The notes beneath the pieces are model-generated. The model saw only the letters and a program-made list of their open reading frames with translations. It was not told the origin of the DNA and did not search any database. A DNA stretch of 64,000 nt from positions 248,001-312,000 of the forward strand of contig NZ_JAODTZ010000001.1 of the NCBI RefSeq assembly GCF_025399795.1, written 5' to 3'. Source of the DNA: Streptomyces rhizosphaerihabitans. Its GTDB lineage: Bacteria > Actinomycetota > Actinomycetes > Streptomycetales > Streptomycetaceae. Each line of letters starts with the position of its first letter. Within the stretch, counting starts at the first letter, position 1. This document shows, one piece after another, positions 10,343 through 25,302 of the stretch. A program made the translations under genes and the position numbers.

Positions 10343-11443
10343 TCATTCGCTCACGTTCTGCCGGATCGTGTGGTCACTGATGCGCAGTGCCTTTGCGAGT
10401 TGGCCGTGCAACTCGCTGGGGAGCGAGCCAGCTTCGAGTGCACAGGCGTGGAGGAGACCACGGCAATCCTGCGCTTCTCGGTCTGTGGCGAGGGCGATGA
10501 ACACGGGGTGCGCCAGGGCCTCTCGGGCGGCGTAGCCATCGGTTGCCTTGACCGCCCGGCGATGCAGCTCCGCGACCAACAGGCGCCCGGTCGGGTCCTC
10601 GGGCGAGGCAACCACGTCCAGCATTGTCAGTCCTAGCCGCATATTAAAGACGGTCATGTCGTCCCCATCCGGACGTTCAAGGTAGGTGGTCACCAGGTTC
10701 TGCAGGGGGCGCCGCCACTCCAGACCAGCAGTCCGGCGGCACAGGACAGTCAGGCAGTCCGTGACGGCGCATTCCCACGGTTCCCCGGACTCCGTGGTGG
10801 TCAACAGGTTGTTGGCGCCGAGGGTGTTCCCCGTGGCGAGGGCGGCAAGGACGGCGACCTGCCGGCCGTCGAACATGCGCTGCCCGACACCGCGGTGTGC
10901 CTCGACATGAGCAAGGGCGTCGGCCCAGCGGCCTGCGGTCGTAAGGGCTCGCGTCCCGTCCGCGAGGAGGACCCGCCACAGCCAAGCGCGAACCTTTCGA
11001 CGGTCCTCGGCAATCGCAGTGATGTCGACAGGTACGGCAATGTCCTCGACCTGGGTTGGGGTGCCGGTGCTGACAGCGTCGAACAGTGCGAGGAGGCTTT
11101 GGTGGCCGGCTGCGTGCTGCCCGGCACGGATTTGGAGGCGCGCGAGGTTGACGACGGGTTCGAGAGCCCGGATAGCGGTCCTGCCGGGCAACGGGACGGC
11201 GTGCAGGTAAGCGGCAGCGTGCTGGTGGCACATCGTGCGGGCAGTGTTCGGGGCACCGATGTCGGAGGCGATCAGTGCGGCCTGGTTGTAGACCGTGGAG
11301 GCCACGCTCGCATCGTCCAGTTTCGCCGCGGTGCTGGCGAGTTCGGCCAGTGCATGCACGCGTTGGACCAGAGGGAGGCAGGCAGGGCGGGGACGGGCGA
11401 CGAGGGGGAAGCGTTGGGCTACGGCGTCAGGGAGTTTCCACAC
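10343..11443 (-). CDS. Helical-repeat protein at the end of the lanthipeptide operon, function unknown
   Basis: The GTG at 11443 starts a 366-residue product that overlaps the upstream gene by 17 bases, so it is co-translated with the lanthipeptide enzymes. The sequence is almost entirely helical with TPR-like pairs (LVQRVHALAELASTAAK, AGRWADALAHVEAHRG, GRQVAVLAALATGN). It resembles C-terminal sensor parts of Streptomyces regulators but has no DNA-binding domain. A role in scaffolding or regulation is possible; none is demonstrated. It stops 112 bases before the first phage connector gene. Confidence 0.65.
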   Translation of the reverse strand: MWKLPDAVAQRFPLVARPRPACLPLVQRVHALAELASTAAKLDDASVASTVYNQAALIASDIGAPNTARTMCHQHAAAYLHAVPLPGRTAIRALEPVVNLARLQIRAGQHAAGHQSLLALFDAVSTGTPTQVEDIAVPVDITAIAEDRRKVRAWLWRVLLADGTRALTTAGRWADALAHVEAHRGVGQRMFDGRQVAVLAALATGNTLGANNLLTTTESGEPWECAVTDCLTVLCRRTAGLEWRRPLQNLVTTYLERPDGDDMTVFNMRLGLTMLDVVASPEDPTGRLLVAELHRRAVKATDGYAAREALAHPVFIALATDREAQDCRGLLHACALEAGSLPSELHGQLAKALRISDHTIRQNVSE

Positions 11444-12257
11444 GGTCCGCGGTACTCCTCTCCGTGGCGGGGTCAGGACCGAAGATGACGGTCTTGGCGG
11501 CAACCACGAGGGCGGCCTGTGTGGGGTAGGGCAGGCCGATCCGGTTCCAGGCGAAAAGCACATGGTGGGCCAGGACGTCACGCAGGCCGCGGTGAAGCTG
11601 TCCGGAATCGGTGAGACGGGCCAGTTCCTGTCCAGCATCGGTGTAGGCGCGGGCCCATCCGGCGACGTGGGCCAGTGGTCCGCCCGTGCACATCAGGTCT
11701 TCCCCGTTGACGGAGATCAGTCGATGCACGGCGGCGGGGAGTCGATCTCGGCTGTCCCGCTCGGTGCCGGGGGGTAGCGGACGATGGGCGCCGACGCGTG
11801 CCCAGACGTCGCCCTGCTCGTACCAGTCCAGTCCGGCGGACCGCATCAGGAGGCTGCACAGCATGAGGGACGTCTCGCGCCGGTGTTTGCCGGCGTTGCC
11901 TGGGAGGTGATCAATCAGGCTGCGACTGTCACGGTGGAAAAGGCGGTGCGCGGATGCCATGGCTTCGACGCCGCCGAAGGCGTGCACCTCGGGTTCGTAG
12001 ATGATCTCCGTCCACCCTTTGATGTACCCGTCGGCGATCAGCGCGTCCAGACCCTGGCCGATGCGGTCGTGCGCGCCGGCGGCAGGCAGGTAGCGCACGC
12101 GCCAGCACGGGCGTTTGCGGACCAGGAACCAGGCGGTGAGCGCGCCTTCGTCCTCTGCGGTGCGCAGAAGGGGGGCGAGTTGAGCCAGAGCGACTGACTC
12201 GGCGCGTTCCCAGTCCGGGAACACGACATTGGTCTGGCACCAGGTGGGCGAGTTCAT
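11427..12257 (-). CDS. Thiopeptide-type (SpaB_C-like) stand-alone elimination-domain protein
   Basis: This 276-residue protein starts with ATG at 12257 and begins MNSPTWCQTNVVFPDW. It carries the W-x-x-x-x-V-x-F...A..L.PLL pattern, WFLVRKRPCWRVRY and FGG-MASAHRLFHRDS, typical of the LanB C-terminal elimination domain family (thiopeptide-type bacteriocin biosynthesis protein). In class I lanthipeptide synthesis this fold removes glutamate from glutamylated Ser/Thr to give dehydroamino acids. The full-length LanB in this locus already has such a domain, so this copy is either a second eliminase or a partner subunit. It lies 20 bases after LanC. Confidence 0.85.
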   Translation of the reverse strand: MNSPTWCQTNVVFPDWERAESVALAQLAPLLRTAEDEGALTAWFLVRKRPCWRVRYLPAAGAHDRIGQGLDALIADGYIKGWTEIIYEPEVHAFGGVEAMASAHRLFHRDSRSLIDHLPGNAGKHRRETSLMLCSLLMRSAGLDWYEQGDVWARVGAHRPLPPGTERDSRDRLPAAVHRLISVNGEDLMCTGGPLAHVAGWARAYTDAGQELARLTDSGQLHRGLRDVLAHHVLFAWNRIGLPYPTQAALVVAAKTVIFGPDPATERSTADRVETP

Positions 12258-12276
12258 GAGGCGGTCTCCGTGATGT

Positions 12277-13521
12277 TCACGCCAGGGCGAGGAAGGTGTC
12301 CCAGTGCGGTGCGGGCGCGCCGCCCGTGCTGAGGGTGTGCAGGGCGAGGGCGGCTCCGGCTGCTCCATCGAGGAGTTCCGGGTCGTAGTTGTCTTGGTGG
12401 AGCGCGGCGATCAGGCGGCTGGTCAGGCGCGGAAGCTCCGCGGCGATTTCGGCGTTGCCCGTCTCGGTGGCCATCCGCCATGCGGCGTGCAGCAGTCCAG
12501 CCATGCCGTGGCACAGCCCGATCTCGGGGAGCTTGCCCAGTTGGAGCGGGTCGCGCAGGGTCGCGAGGATGGCGTTCTCGGCTGCCCGTACCCGTGCCGG
12601 GTCGCGGAGGGCGAGTCCAGCCAGCTGCTGGGCGCGGGCGGTGCCACTGACTCCGTAACACCAGGAGGGCCGGGGGCGGAGGTCGGGATGGACGTGCCCG
12701 TCGGCCGCCTGCTGTAGCGAGATCAGGCCCGGCCACCAGGGGGCGCTCACGTCGCCTTGGCGCCATCGGTCGGTCCAGGCACAGATCCGTTCAATCGCGT
12801 CGACCATGCCAGGCACGGCCAGGTCGCGCAGCAGAGCCAGGGACAGCACGGACAGGGCGGATCCGATGCCGTGGGCGAGCCCGAAGTTCCCGTGGCCATG
12901 GGGATAGTCGGCGTGAGGTGCGCCGGTGGGTGCGACGTTCATCCACCACGGCGGCAGCCCGGCCCGATCGGGCATGAGCTCTGTCAGGCGCGCCAGGTAG
13001 GACAGGACGTCACGGGTGATCTCGCGGTCGGGATCACGGCTCAGGTGATAGGCGCCCAGCCCGGACAGGCCCTGGATCAAGTCGAACTCTTGCATGGGAG
13101 GCCGCTCGGCGCGGTCGATGCGCAGGTGGGCCTCGGCCAGGCGGGCCCGGGTGACGGTGAGGGTCGCCTTGTCCAAGCGTTCCAGGACACGCCGGTAGCG
13201 GCTCGACGCGCTCGCCGCGCGGTGTGTGATGTACGCGAGGGCTGGAGCGCCGAAGTACAGGTTCGCGTTGGCCGCTGCGCTCACTTCGCCGTGTACGGCC
13301 GTGGCCAGCCAGGTGTGCGCGGTGTCCCAGTCGCCGCGGCCGGTACGGGCGCGCTCTATGTGCAGCAGGGCAATGCCCGAGGCTCCTCCGGCGAGAGACT
13401 GCGGCCACGAGCGACCGCCATCCGGCCGGCCACCGGGCCACACCGTGCGCGGTGTGGCCAGCGCGTCGGCCAGTTGGTCGGCGGTCGACAGGGCAGCTGG
13501 GGCGGGGGCTGTCGTGGTCAC
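12277..13521 (-). CDS. Lanthionine synthetase C-family cyclase
   Basis: GTG at 13521 overlaps the LanB stop (GTGA) and follows an AAGGAGG ribosome site, giving 414 residues, the usual LanC length. All zinc ligands are present: C288 in SWCYG and C337-H338 in GLCHG. The other hallmark, H217 in GLAHGIG, is also present. The enzyme catalyses addition of cysteine thiols to dehydroalanine or dehydrobutyrine to form lanthionine rings. It acts in the cytoplasm with LanB on the FxLD precursor. Nothing looks degraded. A longer frame running into the LanB region is only overlapping open frame. Confidence 0.95.
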   Translation of the reverse strand: MTTTAPAPAALSTADQLADALATPRTVWPGGRPDGGRSWPQSLAGGASGIALLHIERARTGRGDWDTAHTWLATAVHGEVSAAANANLYFGAPALAYITHRAASASSRYRRVLERLDKATLTVTRARLAEAHLRIDRAERPPMQEFDLIQGLSGLGAYHLSRDPDREITRDVLSYLARLTELMPDRAGLPPWWMNVAPTGAPHADYPHGHGNFGLAHGIGSALSVLSLALLRDLAVPGMVDAIERICAWTDRWRQGDVSAPWWPGLISLQQAADGHVHPDLRPRPSWCYGVSGTARAQQLAGLALRDPARVRAAENAILATLRDPLQLGKLPEIGLCHGMAGLLHAAWRMATETGNAEIAAELPRLTSRLIAALHQDNYDPELLDGAAGAALALHTLSTGGAPAPHWDTFLALA

Positions 13522-16439
13522 CGTGACCTCCTTGCTCGTGCCGTCCAGCTCAGGGCGGCGGCCCTGGCCAGGTGCAGGTGCGCACGTTCTTGGGGTAGCC
13601 CCGGCCCGCACATCCGGACGTGATGGAGGTGCAGCAGGTCCGGCAGCACGTCGTGGGGCTGTGTGGTCGCGTCCTTGAGCGCGCGGCGGTAGGCGGCCAG
13701 TGCCACGCGGCGTACGGACCAGGCCGTGGTGACGCGCACGTCCAGGCCCGCAGGGTCGGCGTTCACCAGGTCGGCGTTCACCAAGTCGACGGACTGGCGG
13801 TAGACGGCGCGGGGCGGAGCGGCCTGGCCGGTGCGGGTGTGCTCGATGAGCCAGTGCATCGCCGCGGTGGCGTCGCCGAGCAGGCCAGTCACGATGTCCA
13901 CCATGCTCGCGGCGGTCATCGCGCGGGCATCCGGTGCGTTCTTCCCGGCCTGGGCGGCGAGTTGGGCTACGGCGGCCTCGGAGTCTGCGGCGAAGTACTG
14001 CTCGACCGCGTCGATCGCAGCGGGGCCGCCGAACCGCGCGGTCTCTGGGTGGTAGGTCTCCACGCTGGCATGCGTGATCAGGCCGCTGCGCCGGAGATGC
14101 CGGGTCCACTCGCCGATCTGCTCGACGGCGGAACCGAGCGTGCCGGGCGCGCAGGACAGACGGAGGCGGAGGTGGTCGCCGGGGTCTTGGTAGCGGACGA
14201 ACCACCATTGGGGGTCGCCCAGTTCCTCCAGCAGGGTCGGCAGATGCCGGGTCAGGAGCGGGTTCTGCCGGTCTCGGTGTCCGTGGAGCTGGAGGTAGAT
14301 GCGGTTGCTGCAGCCTGGCAGGTGGCCGTGCTCGCGGCTGACGACGTGGCCCGACGCCCGGACTGGAGCGATGGCCTGGTCTGCGGCAGCCAAGGGGATG
14401 ACGACTTCGTGGGCGCGTCCGCTGGTCCAGCCCAGGTCCTGCGATTGCGGTGCGGGGTGCAGCGTCACCTTGCCGTCGCGGTCCAGGTGGGTGCGCAGCA
14501 GGGCCCGGTGTGAGGGCTCCGCCAGGTCCAAGGCCATGCACTGATCGGCCTCGCTCAGGTATACCCGCTCGGGCAAATGCACGTCGCGCCGCCATTGGGT
14601 CAGGGCCTCGTCCCATTGTGGCCACGGTGTCGAGGCACCGGGGATGTCGTCGCTGGTGAGGAGCCAGCGGGCCGGGGACAGGAGCGTGCGTCCGTAGCGC
14701 AGCGCGGGCAGGAACGGCAGGCTGGAGGCGGCGGTACCCCACATGAATCCGGTGCACGGGATGGCCAGCGCGACGGGTGCCTCGGCCAGAAACCGGGCCA
14801 GCGGATGGGTGTGATACCCCAGGTCTACGGCGTTCAGCAGCAGCGTGTGCACCGGCCGCCGGCGGGAGAGCGAGACGAGGTGCAGCCGTTCGGCGTCGGC
14901 GGTCACGGCCAGATCCGTCAGGGGAATGAGGCTGGTGTCCGAGCCCTGGTAGTCGCCGAGCGAGATCAACAGCTCGGTCACCTGCGGGGCACGCGCGACA
15001 TTCTCAGCGGGTGCGGACAGTGGGGTCGAGCTGATCTGCGCGAGGAGGGCGCCTTGGTGCACCGCCGGCAGCCCGGCGTACACGTTGGCCATACGGCGGC
15101 GGACCTCGTCCTCCAGAATGGTCAGGAAGCGGCCGGTGGTCGCTCCGGCCGAGCGGGCCACGCCGACGACGTGCAAGGTGAACTCGCCCTGCTGCAGGGC
15201 CGCAAGGCTCGCGGCATCGATGCGGACGGTCATCTCGGTGCTCGGCTGGACACAGTGGCCAGGATCTGTGGTGGCCAGCTCCTCCAGCGCGGCATCGTCG
15301 AGCTCGACTTCAATGCGGCGCTGCATACCGGCTCGGTGGGCGAGCTTGATGAGTCGGCTGTCCCGGTCGGGCAGCGGGGAGGGCGGCGACGTGGTGGTGG
15401 ACCCGAGGTAGCTGGATGGGTACCCGAGCGCGTCAACGGCGTCCACAACGGGGACGACCGCCGTTGGCCCGTACCGCTCAAGGAACCGGCTGTGCCACTC
15501 GGGCCATCCGGCCAACGCAGACCTGGGCGCGAGACGCGTGAGTGCCTTGGCTGCCGCTGCCGCCTCCTGGGCCACGCTCTCCGGGACGACCAGGTCCCAG
15601 TCCACCCGCAGATCGAACGAGGGTTGGGGCGCCTCGCGTAACTCCGCCGTCTCAGCGGGCGCGAGATACCGCGTGTGCTTGAGGAGCGGGGCAAGCGGGT
15701 CGGCGACCGTCATCGCCTGGCGAAGGCTGGTGATCAGGAGTCGTTGCCTGACCAGACCTGCGAGCAGCTTCTCAATCGCACTGATCGGAGCGGTCGGGAA
15801 GCCGGCGGAGAGTTTTGCTGCGAGGTCGCTCCACAGGATCGGAGTCCGCGCGCCGTCCAGGGCTTCGCGGACCGGCCCTGTCACACGTATCTGCACGTGC
15901 TCCGAAGCGCCGTCGCGCGTGCCACGAGGGCGGTGCTCGATCACCATGTAGCCGTCGCGCTCGGCGACGAGGCTGGACGCGAGCAGCATCAAGCAGGGCT
16001 GCAGTCCGCGGTTTTCCTCGAACCGATCGATGAGTGCCGTGGTCCATGCAGCGTCGGGTCTGGCGAATGCCCGGTGCCCGGTGCCCATGCGCAGCGCGGG
16101 GGCAGCGCCTATTCGTGCGGCCGCGACCCCAGCGAACAGACCGAACGGGGTGGCGCGCGTGCGGGCCCTCAGCAGGTAGCGCAGCACGGAGAGCACCGTA
16201 CGGCGTACTGCGGTGTCCGGCAGCGGCTGACCGGCACAGACCCGGTCCACCCGACTGGCGAGGTCCGGGCTCGCGGCTTTGACGGCGGTCGCGAAGTCGG
16301 CTGCCTGCCACGCCTGTTGCAGCCAGGCCCGCCACGACGCGGCGTTCGCGGACGGGCCGGTCAAATCCGGCCAAGCCACCGGACGGTCGGAGCTCAACGC
16401 AGCCGCTCGGATCACTGCTGCATCAACGTAGCGATACAC
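13518..16439 (-). CDS. Class I lanthipeptide dehydratase (LanB) with fused elimination domain
   Basis: The GTG at 16439 lies behind AGGAGG and encodes 973 residues, a full-length LanB. The conserved glutamylation-domain motif RTRATPFGLFAGV is at about residues 93-105. The C-terminal elimination domain starts near WWFVRYQDPGDHLRLRL (around residue 700). It uses glutamyl-tRNA to glutamylate precursor Ser/Thr and then eliminates glutamate. An in-frame tandem duplication gives DLVNADLVNAD near residue 895, a minor recent change. The gene is separated from the precursor by a 19-bp perfect hairpin. The stop overlaps the LanC start. Confidence 0.95.
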   Translation of the reverse strand: MYRYVDAAVIRAAALSSDRPVAWPDLTGPSANAASWRAWLQQAWQAADFATAVKAASPDLASRVDRVCAGQPLPDTAVRRTVLSVLRYLLRARTRATPFGLFAGVAAARIGAAPALRMGTGHRAFARPDAAWTTALIDRFEENRGLQPCLMLLASSLVAERDGYMVIEHRPRGTRDGASEHVQIRVTGPVREALDGARTPILWSDLAAKLSAGFPTAPISAIEKLLAGLVRQRLLITSLRQAMTVADPLAPLLKHTRYLAPAETAELREAPQPSFDLRVDWDLVVPESVAQEAAAAAKALTRLAPRSALAGWPEWHSRFLERYGPTAVVPVVDAVDALGYPSSYLGSTTTSPPSPLPDRDSRLIKLAHRAGMQRRIEVELDDAALEELATTDPGHCVQPSTEMTVRIDAASLAALQQGEFTLHVVGVARSAGATTGRFLTILEDEVRRRMANVYAGLPAVHQGALLAQISSTPLSAPAENVARAPQVTELLISLGDYQGSDTSLIPLTDLAVTADAERLHLVSLSRRRPVHTLLLNAVDLGYHTHPLARFLAEAPVALAIPCTGFMWGTAASSLPFLPALRYGRTLLSPARWLLTSDDIPGASTPWPQWDEALTQWRRDVHLPERVYLSEADQCMALDLAEPSHRALLRTHLDRDGKVTLHPAPQSQDLGWTSGRAHEVVIPLAAADQAIAPVRASGHVVSREHGHLPGCSNRIYLQLHGHRDRQNPLLTRHLPTLLEELGDPQWWFVRYQDPGDHLRLRLSCAPGTLGSAVEQIGEWTRHLRRSGLITHASVETYHPETARFGGPAAIDAVEQYFAADSEAAVAQLAAQAGKNAPDARAMTAASMVDIVTGLLGDATAAMHWLIEHTRTGQAAPPRAVYRQSVDLVNADLVNADPAGLDVRVTTAWSVRRVALAAYRRALKDATTQPHDVLPDLLHLHHVRMCGPGLPQERAHLHLARAAALSWTARARRSR

Positions 16440-16457
16440 ACACCCTCCTGTGGCCTG

Positions 16458-16504
16458 CGCGGTGCCCGGCCGCGCCCATGGATCAGGCGCGGCCGGGCAC
16501 CGCG
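16458..16504 (-). terminator. Attenuator-type hairpin between precursor and LanB
   Basis: A perfect 19-bp GC-rich stem (16458-16476 with 16486-16504) and a 9-base loop begin 20 bases after the precursor stop codon. There is no long U tract. Placement between the precursor and LanB fits partial termination or 3'-end protection, which would raise precursor mRNA above enzyme mRNA, as known for other lanthipeptide operons. Confidence 0.75.
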
Positions 16505-16524
16505 ATAAACGCGGTCTGGTGCTG

Positions 16525-16707
16525 CTACGGGCAGCTCGTGCACGCAGTCGCGCACGTCGAGTTGCAGCCGTCGTTCGTCAGACGGATGAGGTGGTCCGCG
16601 GCGGGGCCGCCTTCGACGATCGTGATGTCCAGCTCGAAGTCGTCCGGTCCGGACGTCTCCTGTCCGGCGACCGGCTGAAGAATCGGACGGTCCATCTGAA
16701 CGGTCAT
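16525..16707 (-). CDS. FxLD family lanthipeptide precursor
   Basis: ATG at 16707 follows AAGGAGG with 5-base spacing and encodes 60 residues. The leader contains the family-defining FELD motif at residues 24-27 (FELDITIVEGG). The core is Cys/Ser/Thr-rich after about residue 43 (LTNDGCNSTCATACTSCP), with cysteines at 48, 52, 56 and 59 and Ser/Thr at 44, 50, 51, 54, 57 and 58. LanB and LanC would dehydrate and cyclise these. Asp46-Gly47 is the natural candidate substrate for the PIMT-like methyltransferase. The exact leader cleavage point is not visible. Confidence 0.93.
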   Translation of the reverse strand: MTVQMDRPILQPVAGQETSGPDDFELDITIVEGGPAADHLIRLTNDGCNSTCATACTSCP

Positions 16708-16741
16708 ACATGCCTCCTTGGCAGTGAGTGATGGTGCAAGG

Positions 16742-16765
16742 CCGGGGCCCGGGAGCGGGCCCCGG
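16742..16765 (-). terminator. Hairpin between FxLD methyltransferase and precursor
   Basis: A perfect 10-bp stem (16742-16751 with 16756-16765) and a GGAG-type tetraloop start 4 bases after the methyltransferase stop. It could terminate or process the upstream message, so the precursor may be expressed at its own level. The precursor ribosome site lies outside the stem. Confidence 0.6.
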
Positions 16766-16769
16766 AGTC

Positions 16770-17975
16770 TTAGTGCCAGGACGCCGCGACGGTGCCGTGC
16801 CGCTTCAGCACGGTGTCCTGGGGCAGAGGGGACGGGGCAGGACCCGGCACGTACCGGATCGTCGCCGCTCCCCGGCGGCGGTAGTCCTGGGCCCATCGCC
16901 GCAGCAGGGCCAGGTACTGGTCCGCGAGAACTTCGGCCTGCGGACCGTGAGCGACCACACCGCTCTCGAAGCCGCCGGTTTCCCCGTTCTCGCGGCGGGT
17001 GCGGTACGCGATGCTGTCCTCGCTGACCAGCGCCGGCACACCGAGCACGGCTGCTGCTTCCACGAGCCCGCTCTCGACGACGGCCTTGGACGCGTGCAAG
17101 CGGGCCGGGCTCGGCAGACGGAGCGTGAGATACAGCTCCAGCTCGTCAGGCAGGTCATAGGCCGCCCCCGACCAGGACTCCAGCCGGGGAGTGTCCAGGG
17201 CGTGATTCAACGCCTCTGCGTTCAGGTGCACCCGCGCGTCGTCCGTCTGCAAGGCGACGCCATCGCGCAGCAGCGCCTTGCGCTCCTTGGCAGCTCCCTC
17301 GCCCTGCATGGGCACGAAACGCGCCATCCGGTAGGAGCGGCTGACCAGGCCATCGCCGTCACGGTCGAAGGCGATCGAACGGGTCGTACCGCGCACGGTC
17401 AGCGGGACGACGAGCCTGCCCTTCTCAGCAAGCTCACTGATCCACGACGGAGGGATGTCCCACGCGGCCGCGGTAACGATGATCCGGTCGTACGGCGCCT
17501 CATCGGGAACACCGGCCTCGCCGTCGGCGAGCACCGTCTTCACCTGGCCGTACCCGGCATCGTCCAGGCACAGACGGGCGCGGTCGACGACGTCACGGTC
17601 GATGTCGACCGTGGTGACCGTCCCGTCGCTGCCCACGAGTTCCTGGATGAGCGCGGCGTTGTAGCCGTTCGAGCCGATCTCCAGGACCTTCATGCCCGGC
17701 TCGATGTCGGCCTGCTCCAGCATCACCGCCTGGAGGTGGGCGGCGGACATGACGCTGGTGTCCAGGCCGTGCTCGTCCTTCTTGACCGGCACGGTGCTGT
17801 GCAGGTCGTACGCGAGTTCCAGGGGCGCGTCCGGCGCGAACCGGTGCCGGGGCACCGCGGCAAAAGCAGCGGCGACAGACTCGGACAGAATCGCGTCCTG
17901 GTCACAGAGCGCGCGGACCATGGCCGCGCGCAGCACGCCGGGATCACGAACAGTCGAGCCCTCAATAGCAGTCAT
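16770..17975 (-). CDS. FxLD-system protein-L-isoaspartate-type methyltransferase
   Basis: A 401-residue protein. The N-terminal half is a PIMT fold with the SAM motif VLEIGSNGYNAAL at residues 97-109, preceded by the DLHSTVPVKKDEHG substrate-loop region. The C-terminal 180 residues are an extension typical of the lanthipeptide-associated family (methyltransferase, FxLD system). Relatives methylate a core Asp, which collapses to succinimide and can reopen as isoaspartate. The precursor's Asp46-Gly47 fits this chemistry. It is the first gene of the lanthipeptide operon and lies 142 bases downstream of the coupled small ORF. Confidence 0.92.
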   Translation of the reverse strand: MTAIEGSTVRDPGVLRAAMVRALCDQDAILSESVAAAFAAVPRHRFAPDAPLELAYDLHSTVPVKKDEHGLDTSVMSAAHLQAVMLEQADIEPGMKVLEIGSNGYNAALIQELVGSDGTVTTVDIDRDVVDRARLCLDDAGYGQVKTVLADGEAGVPDEAPYDRIIVTAAAWDIPPSWISELAEKGRLVVPLTVRGTTRSIAFDRDGDGLVSRSYRMARFVPMQGEGAAKERKALLRDGVALQTDDARVHLNAEALNHALDTPRLESWSGAAYDLPDELELYLTLRLPSPARLHASKAVVESGLVEAAAVLGVPALVSEDSIAYRTRRENGETGGFESGVVAHGPQAEVLADQYLALLRRWAQDYRRRGAATIRYVPGPAPSPLPQDTVLKRHGTVAASWH

Positions 17976-18117: not shown

Positions 18118-18354
18118 TCAAAACCGAAAGCCGGGGCCTGCCGATCCTCCAGCCGCGAAGGGGGCGAAGTCGTCGACGTCGTAAGCAGCGAGCTGCGCCC
18201 ACGGGCTCGTGCCCGCGCCAAAGCGGGCGGCTTGCTGCGTCAGATCGAACAGCAGGGCCAGCACGGCCGCCTCGATACGGTCCATGCGGCTGGAGCCCCT
18301 GAGACTGACGGGCTCGCTCTGGACCGGGGCGATGGGCGAGCGGACATCAGTCAC
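18118..18354 (-). CDS. 78-residue protein translationally coupled to glutamine synthetase, function unknown
   Basis: GTG at 18354 overlaps the glutamine synthetase stop (GTGACTGA), and the frame keeps host-like codon use to its TGA at 18118. The product is helical in the middle (RIEAAVLALLFDLTQQAARFG) and ends in a Gly/Phe/Ala-rich tail (FAPFAAGGSAGPGFRF). It has no Cys, so a lanthionine-bearing peptide is excluded. It could be a small partner of the ligase or an unrelated coupled protein. An internal ATG at 18285 would give 55 residues. I do not recognise a family. Confidence 0.6.
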   Translation of the reverse strand: MTDVRSPIAPVQSEPVSLRGSSRMDRIEAAVLALLFDLTQQAARFGAGTSPWAQLAAYDVDDFAPFAAGGSAGPGFRF

Positions 18355-19735
18355 GCAGGAACCCCCGCTCCAGTTCAACGTCACCGACCTGTCCGCGGTG
18401 TGCGTAGACCTCTGCTCTTGCGGCGTGTGCGTAGTGCCGCACCACGGCGCCACCGAACGCTTCCTGCGCGAGCGAGCTCGCGTCAAAGTCCGCCAGGGCT
18501 TCGGCGAGGGTGCCCGGCACGGGAAGCGCATCGGAATCCTCGTAGGGCTCGCCCTCGGACGGTGGCGGGGGCTTGAGATGGTTGGTGAGCCCGTGGTGGA
18601 TGGCCGCCAGCGAGGCCGAGAGCGCGAGATACGGGTTGGCGTTGGCCGGCGGAAGACGGATCTCCAGGTGGGTGCCCTCACCGTGGCCGGTGACGCGGAC
18701 GGCGCATCCGCGGTTGTCGTGGCCCCAGGAGAATCGGGTGGGGGCGAAGGAATGCGGAAGGTAGCGGTTGTAGGAGTTGACCGTGGGCGCGTACAGCGGG
18801 CCCAGGTGCGGCATTGCGGTGACGAGTCCGGCGATGGCCTGCTTCATCGTCTCCGGCAGGTCCTGGCCGGACTGGCAGGCGAAGGCGTTGCGGTCGTCGA
18901 ACCAGAGGGACAGATGGATATGCAGTCCGCTGCCCACGCCGGTCTCGGGGACTGCCATGAAGGTGGGTGTCATGCGGTGCTGCTCGGCGAGGTGCTTCAC
19001 GATGTGCTTGTAGGCGGTGTACGCGTCGCAGGCCCGCAGGGCTTCCCCGTACGGGAACGTGACCTCGATCTGGCCTCGGGCACCCTCCGTCTTGACGGCC
19101 TCGACCGGGGTACCGGCGGTGCTCAGCGCGTCTTCGAGGTCGAGGAAGAACTGCATCAGCTCCGGCGGGTGGTCCAGGGAGTAGTCCCCGTTGTGCAGCC
19201 CTACGGGCGTCAGCCCCCGGTAGCCCGCCGCCTGCGCGCGCCGCTGGCCGCCCCGGTAGAGCACGAACTCGCTCTCAAGGCCCACCCGTACGTTCATTCC
19301 CAGCTTCGCGATGCGGGCGAGCTGGGTGCGCAGCATGCGGCGGGGCGCGACGTCGACGAACGTGCCGTCGGCGTGGGCGGCGTCGGCGTGGATGAGGACG
19401 GTGCCGGGGTAGGGCAGGCGCCGGATGGTGTCCATGTTGGGCAGGACCCGGATGTCGCCGTATCCGTCTTCCCAGTCGGTCAGTTCGAAGCCCGTCAGGG
19501 GGTTCATGTCGACGTCGGTGGCCAGGACGTACGCGCACATCTCCTGGGATTCCATCGTCTCCAGGAATCGGGCCGCCCTCAGGCGCTTGCCCTTCAGTCT
19601 GCCCATCATGTCCGGGACGGCGAGCAGCACCGTGGTGATGTCCTCGCGGCTCACAGCGTCCCGGAGGTCGGCGGGAGAGAGGATCCCGGAGCGTGCGGTC
19701 TGCGGGACAGGGTGCTGGACGGTCGGGTCGGGCAT
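18347..19735 (-). CDS. Glutamine synthetase-family gamma-glutamyl ligase
   Basis: ATG at 19735 overlaps the permease stop by one base (TGATG), giving 462 residues, the length of GSI-type enzymes. The N-terminal VPDMMGRLKGKRL and DVDMNPLTG segments, GLESEF, GSGLHIHLSLW, NSYNRYLP and HLEIRLPPANANPYLAL are all present, so metal and substrate residues look intact. The VPDMxGRLxGKR signature is that of the GlnA3/GlnA4-like group, which ligates glutamate to polyamines, ethanolamine or other amines rather than making glutamine. The next-door permease supports use of an amine or amino acid. The substrate is not predictable from sequence. Confidence 0.88.
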   Translation of the reverse strand: MPDPTVQHPVPQTARSGILSPADLRDAVSREDITTVLLAVPDMMGRLKGKRLRAARFLETMESQEMCAYVLATDVDMNPLTGFELTDWEDGYGDIRVLPNMDTIRRLPYPGTVLIHADAAHADGTFVDVAPRRMLRTQLARIAKLGMNVRVGLESEFVLYRGGQRRAQAAGYRGLTPVGLHNGDYSLDHPPELMQFFLDLEDALSTAGTPVEAVKTEGARGQIEVTFPYGEALRACDAYTAYKHIVKHLAEQHRMTPTFMAVPETGVGSGLHIHLSLWFDDRNAFACQSGQDLPETMKQAIAGLVTAMPHLGPLYAPTVNSYNRYLPHSFAPTRFSWGHDNRGCAVRVTGHGEGTHLEIRLPPANANPYLALSASLAAIHHGLTNHLKPPPPSEGEPYEDSDALPVPGTLAEALADFDASSLAQEAFGGAVVRHYAHAARAEVYAHRGQVGDVELERGFLRD

Positions 19736-21252
19736 CACACCACGTCCTGAGACAGGACGGTCTGCTGGCCGGTGCTTCGGGAGGCGGGGAGGCGGTAGTT
19801 ATGACGGCCACGGGTGAGCCACATCAGCCAGGCCAGGCCCAGGACGACCAGCAGCGTGATTCCGGCGTAGTTCATCGACTGAACGGTGAGCGGCGAGGTC
19901 TGGGGAAGGCAGAAGACGACGGTGATGAACGCCGCGTACGTCACGGCGATCCAGCCGATCGGCCGTCGCCACCTGCCCAGGGTCCACGGGCCGGGCTGGT
20001 AGCGGTTTCCGGCGCGCAGCGCGAGGAAGACGGGGACGGCGTAGGCGGGCGTCATCCCGACCGCGTTGATCGCGGTGACCGCGCCGTATGCGGCGGGCGA
20101 GTACAGGGCCGGAAGGGCCAGGAGGAATGCCACGCCGACGGCCAGCCACACACCGTTGACCGGGGTCTGCGTCCGGCTGCTGACCTGCCGCCAGGTCGCG
20201 GAGAACGGCAGTGCCCCGTCGCGGGAGAACGCGTAGACCATGCGGGCGGTCGCGGCGACCTCCGCGTTGCCGCAGAAGAGCATCGCGACGATGACGACGA
20301 GCAGCAGGAGTTTGGCTCCCGGAATGCCGAGGACGTCGATGAAGATCTGCGCGGGCGGCACCCCGGTCGCGCTGTTCTGGGTTCCCTTGTAGTCCTGGAT
20401 GGAGAACAGGAGTCCGGCCAGCAGGACGAATCCGGCGATCCAGGAGACGTAGATGGAGCGGATGATGCCCCGGGGCGCGGCGTACTGCGCCTGCCGGGTC
20501 TCCTCGGACAGGTGCGAGGAGGCGTCGTAGCCGCAGAAGGTGTACCCGGCCAGCAGGGAGCCGACGAGGCACACCAGTAGCGGGCTGGAGATCCCGGTGT
20601 CGTTGTTGAAGTGGGTGAAGACCCACTCGGGCGACTGATGCGCGGCCGGGGCCAGGAACAACGCGCCGACGATCAGCGTGACGCCGCCCATCTGCCACCA
20701 CACCGAGATGGAGTTGAGCACGTTGACCACGCGGACCCCGAGCGCGTTCAGGCCGCCGTGGAGCAGCAGGATCACCGCGAAGATGATCATCTTGGTGCTG
20801 TCGGTCGGCTCCACGCCCCATTGCAGGCTGGCGAACGCCGCGGTGAACGTGGCGGCTCCGTAGTCGATCCCGGCTATCGCTCCGAGCAGGCCCATCAGGT
20901 TGAGCCAGCCCGTGAACCAGCCCGCGAGGGGCCCGCCCAGCCGGTCGGCCATGAAGTACAGGCCGCCGGAGGTGGGATAGGCGGAGGTGACGTCGGCCAG
21001 GGACAGACCTAAGAGCAGCACCATCGCGCCGACCGCGACCCAGCTCCACAGCATGACCGCGGGGCCGCCGGCTCCCAGGCCGAAGCCGAACAGGCTCATG
21101 CATCCGGCCAGCACGCAGATGACAGAGAAGGAAATGGCGAAGTTGCCGAACGTGCTCATTCTGCGGGCGAGTTCTTGCGGGTAGCCGTGCTGGGCCAGGA
21201 CTGCATCGTCGTCGAGCACGCGGTGGCGGTGGGACGCTGTTCTCGGGGACAT
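19735..21252 (-). CDS. APC-superfamily amino acid permease
   Basis: The ATG at 21252 (MSPRTASHRHRVLDDD) follows GAGGA and gives 505 residues. About 12 hydrophobic segments are visible from FGNFAISFSVICVLAG to the C-terminal YAGITLLVVLGLAWLMWL. The SLADVTSAYPTSGGLYFM motif in helix 2 is characteristic of the GABA/choline permease-type APC branch. It would import an amino acid or amine across the cytoplasmic membrane for the coupled gamma-glutamyl ligase. It is not a peptide exporter, so it does not explain lanthipeptide export. Confidence 0.9.
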   Translation of the reverse strand: MSPRTASHRHRVLDDDAVLAQHGYPQELARRMSTFGNFAISFSVICVLAGCMSLFGFGLGAGGPAVMLWSWVAVGAMVLLLGLSLADVTSAYPTSGGLYFMADRLGGPLAGWFTGWLNLMGLLGAIAGIDYGAATFTAAFASLQWGVEPTDSTKMIIFAVILLLHGGLNALGVRVVNVLNSISVWWQMGGVTLIVGALFLAPAAHQSPEWVFTHFNNDTGISSPLLVCLVGSLLAGYTFCGYDASSHLSEETRQAQYAAPRGIIRSIYVSWIAGFVLLAGLLFSIQDYKGTQNSATGVPPAQIFIDVLGIPGAKLLLLVVIVAMLFCGNAEVAATARMVYAFSRDGALPFSATWRQVSSRTQTPVNGVWLAVGVAFLLALPALYSPAAYGAVTAINAVGMTPAYAVPVFLALRAGNRYQPGPWTLGRWRRPIGWIAVTYAAFITVVFCLPQTSPLTVQSMNYAGITLLVVLGLAWLMWLTRGRHNYRLPASRSTGQQTVLSQDVV

Positions 21253-21332
21253 CGAAGGAATCCTCGTGATCGTTGGGGGAAGGTTCGGGGCGGCGCCGAA
21301 GCGGTCACCGTGTGGCGGGGGTGCCCGGCTGT

Positions 21333-22334
21333 TCATCTGCGGTAGGCCTGTTTCAGGGCGTAGTCGCGGGCGTTGGTGAACTCGTGCTCCCACCAGCGCC
21401 GCCCCTCGCTCAGCTGGGCCCACGGCGCCGAGGTGGCGTAGGGGCCGATCGCGTTGAACACGGGGCCAGCCCCTGGCTTCCCGCTGGCGGTCAGCACGTA
21501 GGCCAGGTAGTTGAGGTCGAGTGCGGAGCAGGACTCGGGGACGGCATCAGTGTCGGGGACGGCGTGCTCGAACCAGCCCTCCAGCGCGCGGTCCGCGTAG
21601 TAGCGGACCTGGTCACTGGTCCAGAACCCGAGCGGCCGGACCATCCCACCCTGGCCAAGCTGCTGCCGGTAGGACTCGACGAACGCGTACAACGGCAGGA
21701 CCAGCAGAGCGGAACCCTCGTGCGACTTCAGCGCCGTCCACCGCGCGAAGTCCAAAGCACCCTGCCCGCGGGCCTGGAAGCACTGGAGCATGCGGTGGTA
21801 GCCCTCGCGATTGTCGGGATCGCGGTGGACGACCTCCCACAGCAGCGGCCACGGTCCCGGCGGCAGCAGGGCATCCGGCGAGTCGCCCCAGTGCTCGGGG
21901 CGATGCATGTATCTGCGGTCGACGTCCAGTTGAGCCAGAGCCAGACGGCACACCCACGGCACGGGGTCGTTCGGCAGAGTCTGAGCGGCGTTTCGGCATG
22001 CCCGGCGGGCGTCGCCGATGCTCTGCAGCAAGACCCTCGCCGTCACCTCGGCGCGGCTTGCGTTGAGGGCGCGCTGCGTCTGCACCCGGGCCCACATCAT
22101 CAGTGCATCCGAGTTGTCCGGCTCTTCCTTCCACCAGGCTGTGACCGCGTCGCTGTTCGCGGCGCCGACGGCCAGGATCTGGCTGCGGGAAGTACGCAGG
22201 GCCCGGTCGGCGCCCGTGGCCCAGAGCAGGTCCCGCATCGAGCGCCACCGGCCGAGCTGCAGGTCCTCCAGGGCGGTGCGCAGCCCGTAGTCGCGACCCG
22301 CAGGCTGGACGATCAGAGACATGTCACTGGACAT
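21333..22334 (-). CDS. Conserved-type hypothetical protein, TPR-like
   Basis: A 333-residue, Trp- and Arg-rich soluble protein upstream of the permease on the same strand, with an 80-base gap. The sequence suggests helical repeats (ALEDLQLGRWRSMRDLLW, NSDALMMWARVQTQRALN, NREGYHRMLQCF). No catalytic motif, signal peptide or membrane segment is seen. The putative start is the ATG at 22334 or the next Met codon. It may share a promoter with the permease and ligase. Function unknown. Confidence 0.65.
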   Translation of the reverse strand: MSSDMSLIVQPAGRDYGLRTALEDLQLGRWRSMRDLLWATGADRALRTSRSQILAVGAANSDAVTAWWKEEPDNSDALMMWARVQTQRALNASRAEVTARVLLQSIGDARRACRNAAQTLPNDPVPWVCRLALAQLDVDRRYMHRPEHWGDSPDALLPPGPWPLLWEVVHRDPDNREGYHRMLQCFQARGQGALDFARWTALKSHEGSALLVLPLYAFVESYRQQLGQGGMVRPLGFWTSDQVRYYADRALEGWFEHAVPDTDAVPESCSALDLNYLAYVLTASGKPGAGPVFNAIGPYATSAPWAQLSEGRRWWEHEFTNARDYALKQAYRR

Positions 22335-22503: not shown

Positions 22504-23055
22504 TCAGGGGGTCTGGCGTACAACAGGGAAGTTGAAACCAGTCGCGTTCAGGGGCTTGATCAGCGCCTGAACGATCTTTCCGGCCTCTGTTGGGGCGAAG
22601 GCGAGCTCGGCGCCGAGTTCACGCGCGATCCACAGGCCCCGTGGCTTCTCGCCCTCGACCGGCTTCCACGTCACGACGTCGCTGAAGTCAGGAAAGTCGC
22701 GACGGAAGTCCTGCACTTGAATGACGAGTTCACCCGTAGGCAGGAGCATCCACTGCATGGAGATCTGGGCGTACTCGGGGACACGCGAGTGTGCCACCGC
22801 ATTGGCCATCAGCACGCCCCCGATACGTGCCGCATCTTCGATATCCACGCAGGTGTTCGCCAGCGTGAGGTACATGCGGGTGTAACTGCGCGCGTTCGCG
22901 ACCACGTGACGGTTAGCTCGGATTTGTGCGTGACGCGTCCACGTCGGCTCGTCACGTATGAGACCTGGGATGCCAACGGCGCCTTGCCGGTGGCTGCCCA
23001 GCACAGAGTGCGGTTTCGGGAAGAGCCTGAAGAGTGGCTCGTCGGACGAAGTCAT
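22504..23055 (-). CDS. Degenerate anti-sigma-factor-type ATPase (HATPase-like)
   Basis: This 183-residue protein follows the general order of RsbW-like ATPases: an N-box-like segment (GGVLMANAVAHS), a G1-like LVIQVQDF and a G2-like KPRGLWIARELGA. The usual catalytic SEL of the N box is replaced by GVL and GRGL by PRGL, so ATP binding is doubtful. It lies 9 bases after the intact ATPase gene on the same strand, suggesting a paired regulator or an adaptor. The assignment rests on motif order. Confidence 0.55.
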   Translation of the reverse strand: MTSSDEPLFRLFPKPHSVLGSHRQGAVGIPGLIRDEPTWTRHAQIRANRHVVANARSYTRMYLTLANTCVDIEDAARIGGVLMANAVAHSRVPEYAQISMQWMLLPTGELVIQVQDFRRDFPDFSDVVTWKPVEGEKPRGLWIARELGAELAFAPTEAGKIVQALIKPLNATGFNFPVVRQTP

Positions 23056-23064
23056 CGTTCCTTC

Positions 23065-23529
23065 TCAACAGGGGATGGAGCACCAGGTGGTGGCGCCGGC
23101 ATCACTGACACCCCACGTTCCGTGGCGCGCATCCACGAGAGATGCGACAAGGGAGAGGCCGCGTCCCGTTTCGGCGTCGCCGTCGACGGAGTGGATCTCC
23201 GCGCTCCCCGGCATCCCGTCACGAACGGAGATGCGGAGAGAGCCGTCTCGGACAGTCATCGCAAAGGTGATCTGTGTTCCGCCACTGTGCAGGAGCGCGT
23301 TGGTGAACAGCTCTGAGACGATGACCGCCACGTCGTCCGACATCCTCTGAAGGCCGCAGTACTTCAAGCGCGCCCTGGCCAATCGCCGCATTGTGCCGAC
23401 CCGACTGGCGTCCTCGCGACACAAGCTCTCACTGCCGCTGCGTCGCGCGATCGCGACACAGGTGGTCATCGAATCCTCCTCGCGGACGGAGGTCGCGAGA
23501 GGCGGCTGTACCGCTGCCGTCATCATCAC
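23065..23529 (-). CDS. Anti-sigma-factor-type serine kinase / HATPase
   Basis: A 154-residue product with an intact N box (VIVSELFTNALLHSG), G1 (LRISVRDG) and G2 (ETGRGLSLVASLV), the core of the RsbW/SpoIIAB-type ATPases numerous in Streptomyces. These bind and inactivate sigma factors or phosphorylate anti-anti-sigma factors. GTG/ATG codons at 23529, 23526 and 23523 all fit as starts after an AGGGG site. It is divergent from the XRE regulator across 182 bases, a frequent Streptomyces pairing. It probably regulates nearby genes, but the target is unknown. Confidence 0.82.
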   Translation of the reverse strand: MMMTAAVQPPLATSVREEDSMTTCVAIARRSGSESLCREDASRVGTMRRLARARLKYCGLQRMSDDVAVIVSELFTNALLHSGGTQITFAMTVRDGSLRISVRDGMPGSAEIHSVDGDAETGRGLSLVASLVDARHGTWGVSDAGATTWCSIPC

Positions 23530-23629
23530 GCACCCCTGAGGGCAGGACCCTCTGAGACGAGGGCGTTACCTGTCGTGGTCATGGACACACCGTTTCGCGA
23601 GTCCGAGGCCGCTGCCAGGGGAATTCAGA

Positions 23630-23667
23630 GGGGGAAAAAGTCTGTCAAGGGGGAAACAGACGGGGGA
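23630..23667. promoter_or_regulatory. Repeated GGGGGAAA motif in the divergent regulatory region
   Basis: GGGGGAAA occurs at 23630-23637 and 23649-23656, and a shortened GGGGGA at 23662. The first two are spaced 19 bases start to start. They lie between the divergently transcribed ATPase and XRE genes, the natural place for an operator bound by the XRE protein. Binding is inferred only from position and repetition. Confidence 0.4.
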
Positions 23668-23711
23668 GTTGAAGCCATGATTGGCATCCACTCAAAGACG
23701 AGGTCACACTC

Positions 23712-24962
23712 ATGGCAACAGACGAGTTCGCCTTCGCCGAGCTGCTTCTTCAGCTTCGCAAGAAGGCCGGGCGAACACAGGAAGAGCAGGCAGCCGCGAT
23801 CAACACGGTCTCGGGTCGGGACACGATGACCCGACGTGAGATCAATCGCTACGAGCAGGCCAAGAACATCCCAACGAACCACACGGTTGCGCACATCGCG
23901 GTGGCCTGCGGCTTATCCCCTGAACATCTGCAGCGGGAGGCGGCTGCCGCCCGCGCCTGGCGCAGGAAGAGCGCCCGCCGCGCAGGGGAGGACCAGGACG
24001 ACGTGAAACGCCGGACGCTGCTCGAAGGTGCCGTCGTCGGCGCAGCAGCCGCTGCCGAGCCGTGGGAACGCCTCACCCATGCCCTCAAGAAGGGGATGAG
24101 GGTCGACTCCGCCGCGGCCGCCACCCTCGTTGATCGCGCGAGTGCTCTTCACGTGAGCGAGGGGCACCAAACCGCGCTCGAACTGCAGGGTGAGGTCGAG
24201 GGCCACCTCGATGCGATCACTGCCGCGCTACCAAGGGCGGGTGAATACGAACGGACCATGACGATCGCCGGCGGAGAGACGGCCGCTTTGGCGGGATGGG
24301 TTGCGTGGGACTTGGGGGACCATCGGCGGGCTCACGCCTACTACAAGGTCACCATGGAATGCGCAGAAGCCGCCGGGCACCCGCCATTGCGCGCCCTGGC
24401 CTTGGCTTACGCCAGCTACGGAGCAGCAACCCCGGGAAGGGCTGCTGAACTGTTGGCACAAGCCGCGAAGGATGTACGCGGACCCGGCAACGCCGCCGCC
24501 TCTGCCTGGGTCTACGGCAGGCTCGCGGAAGAAGCTGCGAGTGTCGGCGATGACACGAATGCCCTCCGGGCCCTGGAGCGCGCTCGCTTCGCTTACGACT
24601 TCGCCGATCACACCGCCGAGCAGGCATGGGTGCGTTTCGTGACGCCCTACCGAATGGACTCCCTGGCGCTGTCGGTATACGGGCAACTCGGGAGACATGA
24701 ACTGGCCGAGACCGCAGACCATGCGGTGGATCGGCTGGGCAGGGACCTACCGGAATCGGGGGTTGTAGTACTGGGCGACCTGGCTTCGGCGCTGTTGCGC
24801 GGCGGAGACCTCGACCAAGGCGTTTATGTGTCACGCCAGTTCGCTGCGGCTGTTGAGGCCCGTCCCAACACCATGGGAAGAGCGCGCGCCGCAGCCATTG
24901 CCTCTCAGCTTCCGACCACGGAGCGCGAACTCACCCACCACCTTCAACTGTTCGCTGCTTGA
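23712..24962 (+). CDS. XRE-family regulator with TPR-like C-terminal domain
   Basis: A 416-residue protein. The N-terminal helix-turn-helix is at about residues 8-75 (FAELLLQLRKKAGRTQEEQAAAI, REINRYEQ, HIAVACGLSPEHL). A short basic linker and a hydrophobic EGAVVGAAAAAE segment follow, then a TPR-like sensor region. This architecture is common in Streptomyces regulators next to anti-sigma-type ATPases. ATG at 23712 has a GAGG site. Codon 68 is a TTA leucine codon (23913-23915), so translation may depend on the bldA tRNA. It likely controls neighbouring cargo genes. Confidence 0.85.
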   Translation: MATDEFAFAELLLQLRKKAGRTQEEQAAAINTVSGRDTMTRREINRYEQAKNIPTNHTVAHIAVACGLSPEHLQREAAAARAWRRKSARRAGEDQDDVKRRTLLEGAVVGAAAAAEPWERLTHALKKGMRVDSAAAATLVDRASALHVSEGHQTALELQGEVEGHLDAITAALPRAGEYERTMTIAGGETAALAGWVAWDLGDHRRAHAYYKVTMECAEAAGHPPLRALALAYASYGAATPGRAAELLAQAAKDVRGPGNAAASAWVYGRLAEEAASVGDDTNALRALERARFAYDFADHTAEQAWVRFVTPYRMDSLALSVYGQLGRHELAETADHAVDRLGRDLPESGVVVLGDLASALLRGGDLDQGVYVSRQFAAAVEARPNTMGRARAAAIASQLPTTERELTHHLQLFAA

Positions 24963-24966
24963 TGCG

Positions 24967-25302
24967 TCACCCAGCAGTCTCTGGCGCGGACTCTTCGGCA
25001 ACCCACGCCAGGTACGCCTCGGACCCTCCAGTCACCAGCAGCGTGATCCACTCAGGAACCTCGTAGCTGTGCTCCTTGGACACCCAAGCTTGAAGCTCCG
25101 GAAGCCGCGCCGTGGTCGTCTTGTACGAGATCCGCCACTCTTGGGCGGTCTCGATGGCATTCTTCCATCGGTACACCGCGGTGAACGCGGGGTCGATGTG
25201 GGCACAGGCGGCCAACCGATTCTCGACCGCGCCACGAGCGAGGTTCTTCGCCTTCTCCTCGTCGTCGATGGTCGTCTGCGCAATCACGATTTCGCTGGCC
25301 AT
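24967..25302 (-). CDS. cutA: Divalent-cation tolerance protein CutA
   Basis: A 111-residue protein matching CutA1 in length and motif order: an N-terminal IVIAQTTIDDEEKAKNLARG strand-helix, RLAACAHIDP, YRWKNAIETAQEWR, KTTTARLPELQAWV, HSYEVPEWITL and a terminal YLAWV. CutA forms cytoplasmic trimers and is tied to copper tolerance and other, unsettled roles. It is convergent with the XRE gene, with only 4 bases between stops. It is the last cargo gene before the phage minor head gene. Nothing links it functionally to the lanthipeptide locus. Confidence 0.88.
   Translation of the reverse strand: MASEIVIAQTTIDDEEKAKNLARGAVENRLAACAHIDPAFTAVYRWKNAIETAQEWRISYKTTTARLPELQAWVSKEHSYEVPEWITLLVTGGSEAYLAWVAEESAPETAG

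Follow-up and report, generated by a model that had tools for sequence, protein, structure and literature searches.

A recurrent cargo site between the head and tail genes of a prophage lineage, occupied by an FxLD lanthipeptide cluster in Streptomyces rhizosphaerihabitans

Introduction

Why does a lanthipeptide gene cluster lie in the middle of the virion genes of a prophage? The question is raised by a stretch of 64,000 nucleotides (the window; bases 248001-312000 of contig C1, NZ_JAODTZ010000001.1) in the 10.2-Mb draft genome (244 contigs) of Streptomyces rhizosphaerihabitans, where 15.2 kb of non-phage genes on the minus strand separate the MuF-like minor-head gene (muF, 25417-26235) from the DUF6093 genes (9367-10230) of a prophage. 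An FxLD class I lanthipeptide cluster occupies 10343-17975, and ligase, permease and regulator genes continue to 25302. An earlier note on this stretch took the cluster for cargo of the phage, called the placement unusual, and supposed that the cargo could spread with the phage and be expressed during lytic development.

In actinobacteria, antiSMASH predicted biosynthetic gene clusters in 13 of 2112 prophages, several of them class I lanthipeptides in Streptomyces (PMC10023795); the one sentence given to them there states no location, recurrence at one junction or promoter analysis, and overlap with the present lineage is possible. Accessory defence hotspots are described for P2-like phages and P4-like satellites in the available text of PMC9122126, and class I actinobacterial lanthipeptides with intracellular anti-phage action, the work of Shomar et al., in that of PMC12360287, PMC12715929 and PMC12926258. 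No description of a recurrent, promoter-bounded bay was found in the literature searched by title and start of abstract, most subscription papers and all preprints lying outside its scope. As far as the available text of these sources goes, lanthipeptides in Streptomyces prophages are already known, and the recurrent, promoter-bounded bay is apparently new.

We consider it probable that the muF/DUF6093 junction is a cargo bay (an accessory or "moron" hotspot) of a temperate phage lineage, and that the FxLD operon is its present load, expressed in the lysogen and likely anti-phage. The best-supported claim is the structural one, of an accessory hotspot that stands out by its size and position. 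It is found repeatedly and with changing contents, and the head and tail blocks on either side keep their order and spacing.

Results

Length of the muF/DUF6093 interval among related prophages

Relatives were collected by MuF, a close match being 67-100% identity over the full or near-full length; such matches were present in 13 of 295 genomes of the genus, the window genome included. With scans of named genomes and viral contigs the collection grew to 58 full-length sequences, which fall into 44 groups at 98% DNA identity; matches covering 85% or less of the query or less than 60% identical were dropped before counting, and one sequence was then kept per group. Outgroup loci were counted without dereplication (L161 and L162 look alike). 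Gap lengths were taken from tblastn with the window proteins, because the gene caller misses low-GC genes.

At least 2 kb of sequence past muF was available for 36 of the 44 close-clade groups (window included; less than 2 kb for the other eight), and in none of the 36 was a tail-side gene found within 2 kb of muF. Both sides of the junction were in hand for 13 groups, again with the window: the interval measured 7.6-31.6 kb in 12 of them and 2.9 kb in L143, and the remaining 23 groups yield a lower bound. L143 branches off before all other rows of the close clade, and its g8072 gene precedes DUF6093 as in the outgroups. Among more distant relatives, the gap was 0.03-1.44 kb in all 14 loci for which both sides were located; that count leaves L156 (nearest tail-side match g5559, 3.5 kb), L160 and L163 without a second side, and the sequence of outgroup L148 stops 30 bases past muF. 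Within this phage lineage, large cargo at muF/DUF6093 is the norm throughout the elements open to judgement, and fixed flanking genes enclosing variable content make the junction a hotspot. The placement called unusual by the earlier note is so in size and position, but not within its own lineage.

The block from scaffold to muF is constant in the close clade (2.9-3.2 kb), whereas the portal-scaffold gap ranges over 0.17-16.4 kb and the terminase-portal gap over 0.1-15.1 kb, which points to further, mostly smaller bays at the block borders. Carriers include Streptomyces and its kin, Kitasatospora and Actinacidiphila, and the four elements measured are 86-100 kb long. The closest isolated phage is Streptomyces phage ZL12 (37% identity in MuF and 57.5% in the terminase large subunit), which shares the head and tail gene order and has a genome of similar size. 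ZL12 differs in carrying no cargo, with muF, two small genes and DUF6093 side by side, and in having a single DUF6093 gene, placed after the g8072 homologue and without a promoter-like motif ahead of it. Distant MuF proteins also occur on plasmids (41 matching records; 86-94 kb among the 15 matches listed), and one plasmid record was counted at 60-80% MuF identity.

Turnover of the load

DNA homology between close phages breaks off at the 3' end of muF, where the loads begin. Identity of the window to L142 is 93.6% in the terminase stretch and 86.6% from scaffold to muF, and the match ends at 25414; matches to G278a, L094, L095 and L097 end at 25426-25435, the muF stop codon being 25417-25419. 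The sequence past muF is limited to 0.9 kb in G278a and 3.9 kb in L142, and the alignments of L128 and L131 end with their sequences.

FxLD enzymes were found in the bays of the window, G011, G252 and G239 (four of the 12 large cargoes bounded on both sides) and also in those of L105, L107, L116, L132, L134 and L157, at least 10 of the 44 groups in total; FxLD genes were not found in the other eight bounded cargoes of 7.6-31.6 kb. Those present show two gene orders. By the MuF tree, which was built quickly and has 17 of its 43 inner branches open, FxLD and other loads replace each other at least seven times among 18 labelled rows.

The other loads are diverse, as judged from a Pfam run on 30 of the 170 called open reading frames (ORFs) of the 11 other bounded cargoes and from PADLOC scanning of 69 hand-picked proteins, mostly without an obvious metabolic family, from the 182 called ORFs of all 12. 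Known defence systems are predicted in two of the 12 bounded cargoes. The bay of G258 carries the Lamassu gene LmuB (LmuA and LmuC matches occur among the 69 scanned proteins, their locus not being assigned by the tool), and that of G217 a Shedu protein alongside an additional DNA polymerase III alpha and a tRNA synthetase of class II. In G261 the bay holds a run with HATPase and ATP_bind_1 genes, together with acyl-CoA dehydrogenase, aldolase and EPSP-synthase-family genes; the run of four genes (L047:7590-10580), of which the HATPase and ATP_bind_1 genes were matched, resembles a Streptomyces conservon. The bay of G227 holds glycosyltransferases, TauD, PIG-L and a tRNA synthetase. The additional genes for housekeeping targets, namely DNA polymerase III alpha and class II aminoacyl-tRNA synthetases, lie at L043:14739-18284 and L058:3604-4842 (G217 bay) and at L059:13456-15087 (G227 bay). 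Spare copies of this kind are typical of self-resistance genes in antibiotic clusters.

Promoter-like motifs at the variable junctions

The first gene past the bay, DUF6093 gene a (9790-10230, minus strand), is preceded directly ahead of its start codon by a promoter-like motif, CTGTC-N12-TAGGCTCGA (10234-10259, minus strand), so spaced that a leaderless transcript would start at the ATG. A promoter-like motif, TACACTGATC (29260-29269, minus strand), also lies ahead of the scaffold gene. The -10-like pattern TAVVCTSR was found ahead of DUF6093 in 11 of 12 cargo-bearing elements, ahead of the scaffold gene in 34 of 36 and ahead of the portal gene in 23 of 31 (one of these inside the portal gene; the portal of the window itself has a variant missed by the pattern). 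The same pattern preceded the terminase gene in 0 of 21 elements, the decoration gene in 0 of 39, the capsid gene in 0 of 39, g26235 in 0 of 5 and muF in 1 of 42, and on the tail side g8072 in 1 of 11, g7660 in 0 of 11, g6508 in 0 of 10 and g5891 in 0 of 9. The rows are related and the counts are not independent; the contrast among genes of the same elements is sharp. Each of the three variable junctions is followed by a gene with the motif ahead of it. Ahead of DUF6093 it was found at none of eight outgroup loci, L143 counted among the eight; elsewhere in the outgroups the strict motif precedes the ZL12 portal and the L053 scaffold gene, with look-alikes in a few others.

The tail block would accordingly have gained a late promoter of its own, spaced for a leaderless transcript, and separate transcription of the tail block would make the muF/DUF6093 junction tolerant of inserts.

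A G+C-rich leader (GGCGCGGGGGCGC-like) follows the motif upstream of the scaffold and portal genes, conserved in the close clade and partly in ZL12; it is possibly an mRNA leader or a regulator site.

Remnants of muF and the proposed exchange of loads

Truncated copies of the muF 3' end lie inside or beside the cargoes of G225, L094, L107 and L111, and others stand without nearby phage structural genes (L049, L120, L122-L127 and L082-L085). In the L107 prophage, a 6.2-kb module running from a second, partial muF copy through a regulator and a methyltransferase to an FxLD precursor is 95.2% identical to L122 of S. fildesensis, around which no phage structural or integrase gene of the query set was found within 10 kb. 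Remnant lengths vary, and the one in L094 takes in the end of the gene preceding muF; this speaks for head-block recombination rather than for an integrase that acts at muF. Loads would be swapped when the adjoining head block recombines, and the muF 3' remnants would be what such events leave behind. A search of the window cargo for such a remnant gave chance-level matches only.

A second copy of the terminase 3' end (219 bp, 90.9%) lies about 6 kb beyond the first in G278:C151 (L036/L074), in likeness to the muF remnants, and the terminase-portal junction may acquire inserts by a similar route. Past muF the same contig carries tandem repeat units of about 135 bp, shared with L037 (G278:C59), which possibly caused the contig break in G278.

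Conservation of the flanking phage genes

The cargo is flanked by terminase, portal, scaffold, decoration and capsid genes on the head side and by tape-measure, minor tail and endolysin genes on the tail side. The phage genes of the window align near full length with those of relatives (terminase 1-517/517, capsid 1-349/349, tape measure 1-1607/1607), and the ratio of nonsynonymous to synonymous substitution rates (dN/dS) is 0.06-0.33 for seven of them, each compared with up to five near relatives. These genes evolve under purifying selection. The stop-free frames of 27 phage genes are true largely by construction, the genes having been picked as ORFs. Integrase and attachment (att) repeats at a tRNA gene, together with terminase, portal, capsid, tail and lysis genes, mark the element by its sequence as a temperate tailed phage. 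Two statements of the earlier note, that the flanking genes are intact and that the cargo lies within the structural genes of a single prophage, were borne out by these alignments and dN/dS values, by synteny with ZL12 and relatives, by the att repeats and by single-contig assemblies. Its label of "head-tail connector" for the genes past the cargo agrees with position and synteny; the genes belong to DUF6093, which is not a named connector family.

Genes of the window cargo

The window cargo includes, all on the minus strand, an FxLD-system O-methyltransferase (PCMT-like; 16770-17975; TIGR04364 2.5e-160, 533.9 bits against a cut-off of 320), an FxLD precursor of 60 amino acids (16525-16707; TIGR04363 4.7e-17, 61.7 bits against a cut-off of 30), a LanB dehydratase (13518-16439; PF04738 1.1e-171, PF14028), a LanC-like cyclase (12277-13530, the start unsettled at about 13521; PF05147 3.2e-36) and a thiopeptide-type/SpaB C-terminal protein (11427-12368; PF14028, TIGR03891). 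The precursor has F-E-L-D in its leader and four Cys near its C terminus. With precursor, methyltransferase, LanB and LanC all present, the genes are assigned by profile to the FxLD class I clusters, and lanthionine rings are predicted. The last gene of the cluster (10343-11638, minus strand) is without an assigned function; it is 53-62% identical to seven homologues in phage-borne and other FxLD clusters, homologues also follow FxLD clusters outside these phages, and no match was found in Pfam, NCBIfam or PDB sequences.

Upstream of the cluster, again on the minus strand, lie a glutamine-synthetase-type ligase (18347-19738; PF00120 1.3e-84), an amino-acid permease (19735-21423; PF13520 2.1e-60), a protein without an assigned function that is common to six of the 12 bounded cargoes (21333-22334; no match in a PDB sequence search), a small protein to which profile scans and comparison with relatives gave no family (22504-23055), and an anti-sigma-type HATPase regulator (23065-23529; PF13581 2.3e-9). 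A divergent XRE-type (HTH_31) regulator follows on the plus strand (23712-24962; PF13560 3.8e-8), and a CutA1-like protein (24967-25302, minus strand; PF03091 1.5e-32) is the last cargo gene before muF. Among the window cargo proteins scanned, no exporter, leader protease or peptidase, or obvious immunity gene was recognised, the amino-acid permease being the only transporter. Profile matches confirmed the enzyme set, ligase, permease and regulators listed by the earlier note; as corrections, the precursor lies at 16525-16707, and 10343-11638 is a cluster gene without an assigned function.

Discussion

Role of the load

The load would be expressed in the lysogen from its own regulators, and the FxLD peptide would act inside the lysogen, most likely against competing phages. 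An anti-phage role is placed first because class I actinobacterial lanthipeptides have been so described, no exporter was recognised, and two of the 12 bounded cargoes carry known defence systems; perhaps, then, the peptide is anti-phage. As described in the available text, the lanthipeptides of Shomar et al. share with the present one the LanB/LanC class I type, the actinobacterial origin and, with no exporter recognised here, an intracellular site; their clusters lie in defence islands, unlike the prophage-borne cluster of the window, and the likeness is one of class. Anti-phage lanthipeptides are reported there to inhibit phage late-gene transcription (PMC12360287), which leaves the puzzle that a cluster of a late-gene-inhibiting type may here ride inside the late region of a phage.

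Several observations weigh against this interpretation. An anti-phage function is suggested solely by resemblance in class. The FxLD methyltransferase scored over the cut-off in 126 of the 295 genomes. Twenty FxLD copies outside muF elements were picked from the part of the listing at about 440-456 bits, a score range shared by phage copies of the G239 type, and all 20 match the G239-type enzymes: 18 with the full set (57-78%), L175 with a single gene (80%) and L182 at only 32-44%. The gene set is that of the phage-borne clusters. No muF or phage structural gene was found in the 14-20 kb examined around any of the 20, and a weak integrase-like match (27-34%) was found near five; the context of L182 is provisional, since it lies on a short contig of G278, whose prophage is broken up between contigs. 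FxLD clusters are thus common in Streptomyces genomes, the sampled copies standing without phage genes in the stretch examined, and the role of the peptide need not be phage-related. Hairpins in the 70 nucleotides past the muF stop, folded for 38 elements as a candidate terminator insulating the cargo, were no stronger than in shuffled sequence (mean z-score -0.09; two of 38 under -2), so that such a terminator is not supported and read-through into the cargo may occur. PADLOC returned 37 families from the 69 cargo proteins and 12, including one weak SduA, from a control of 69 of the 70 called chromosomal ORFs beside prophages, a partly redundant set in which neighbourhoods repeat; the 12 are read as mostly housekeeping look-alikes, and defence enrichment by match counts was dropped because the controls gave them. 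Viperin candidates in the G217 and G275 bays (1.3e-12 and 2.1e-14) were rejected, other radical-SAM genes of the same genomes equalling or beating them. As for the phage itself, a search of 50,697 phage records gave no isolate of the clade, and infectivity is a prediction; att repeats were found in four of the six elements searched, the window and five relatives (86.5, 90.6, 93.3 and 100.3 kb), and not in G217 and G258.

As ordinary residents of these genomes, the FxLD clusters were probably captured by the phages, and probably more than once, a direction that we infer. Spread of the cargo with the phage, as supposed by the earlier note, agrees with its recurrence, its scatter on the MuF tree and the 95% identical module on the S. 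fildesensis contig, all of this on the level of sequence. A wider proposal, which we put forward tentatively with the chances rather against it, is that the lineage evolved a separate tail promoter and promoter-bounded bays within its virion operon and became a shuttle for natural-product and defence operons, the loads being swapped through the head block and left in the host as the phage decays, and that part of the Streptomyces repertoire of ribosomally synthesized and post-translationally modified peptides (RiPPs) would be phage-delivered.

Alternative explanations

Close behind the anti-phage role ranks the reading that the same bay holds a secreted bacteriocin or signal aiding the lysogen against competing bacteria, which is unlikely though well worth keeping in mind. 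Lanthipeptides are classically antibacterial, sublancin of SP-beta offers a comparison for a phage-borne bacteriocin, and Dragos is said to have read gene clusters of this kind in phages as interbacterial weapons in 2021. Precursor core types differ, as expected of weapons (at least four in bays by eye and a fifth in the broken prophage L119), but no exporter, leader protease or obvious immunity gene was recognised among the scanned cargo proteins.

The idea of a defective phage, at whose junction inserts accumulate neutrally in the course of decay, is improbable. Inserts also occur at the terminase, portal and scaffold gaps, the relatives L117, L119 and L121 are clearly broken, and the clade has no isolated phage; full-length phage genes, dN/dS of 0.06-0.33, constant block spacing, conserved promoter-like motifs and att repeats at two kinds of tRNA gene all speak against decay. 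Equally improbable is an integrative island that targets and restores the muF 3' end. The second, truncated muF copies in or beside cargoes and at loci without phage structural genes nearby would suit such an island, but the window cargo has no muF remnant, no recombinase was found among the scanned cargo proteins (the window and 30 of 170 called ORFs of other cargoes), and the varying remnant length, with the end of the preceding gene in L094, fits head-block recombination better.

A peptide made in late lytic growth that aids the phage itself, by lysis, as a part of the virion or by killing on release, is slightly less probable still. The operon is co-directional with the late genes and no terminator was detected after muF; against this, FxLD genes were not found in eight of the 12 bounded cargoes, the cargo has its own divergent regulator, and the tail block has a separate motif. 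The expression during lytic development proposed by the earlier note did not find support, given a separate promoter-like motif for the tail block and dedicated regulators for the cargo. An assembly chimera, for which the 244-contig draft might speak, or flanks from different phages can be dismissed as next to impossible, since the identical layout in one-contig (G225, G227, G252) and two-contig genomes (G217, G258) rules out an artefact and both flanks lie close together in ZL12; the relatives refute both of these readings, which the earlier note had entertained.

Comparison and implications

The cargo bay resembles the P2 and P4 hotspots, in the available description of these, in a variable load between two conserved phage genes, high turnover and defence systems among the loads. 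Those hotspots are of about 1-5 kb and lie, in P2, between a replication gene and the portal gene, whereas the present bay measures 7.6-31.6 kb (2.9 kb in L143), lies between head and tail genes and takes up whole biosynthetic operons. If the cargo-bay interpretation is true, it gives a concrete route for Streptomyces natural-product operons between strains, accounts for the survival of virion gene blocks interrupted by as much as about 30 kb of inserted DNA, and makes the muF-to-DUF6093 interval an address at which to seek unknown defence systems and RiPPs.

Other features of the window prophage

The prophage extends over 86.5 kb between 43-bp tRNA-Thr repeats. A tyrosine integrase (52935-54569, plus strand; PF00589 7.2e-17) adjoins the tRNA-Thr gene, whose 3' part forms the att repeat at 54723-54766. 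On the minus strand follow the terminase large subunit (41278-42831; phrog_38 5e-107), portal (37856-39709; phrog_64 6.2e-19), scaffold (28521-29219; phrog_2303), head decoration protein (27993-28403; phrog_3583), family E major capsid protein (26930-27979; PF03864), the MuF-like protein (25417-26235; phrog_37388 4.4e-128; phrog_4611 minor head 1.6e-14) and, past the bay, DUF6093 gene a (PF19586 1.3e-23), DUF6093 gene b (9367-9786; PF19586 6.1e-17) and the tape-measure protein (735-5558; PF10145). The Pfam Phage_min_cap2 match of the MuF-like protein stays below the family cut-off, and a PDB sequence search with it gave no match.

A second variable insert of 8.6 kb, overlooked by the earlier note, fills the portal-scaffold gap (29277-37855); among others it contains a SpoIIE-type PAS/GAF phosphatase (30870-33398) and an AraC-type regulator (36726-37736).

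The att repeat has two further copies on the same contig, one of 43 identical bases at a distance of 86.5 kb (contig position 216228, window -31772) and one of 44 identical bases at 103.8 kb (contig position 198935, window -49065), which points to a second element of 17 kb, probably in tandem behind the prophage. In G261 (93.3 kb), G225 (90.6 kb) and G252 (100.3 kb) the att repeats lie at tRNA-Met, and G261 has five copies of a tRNA-Met 3' end.

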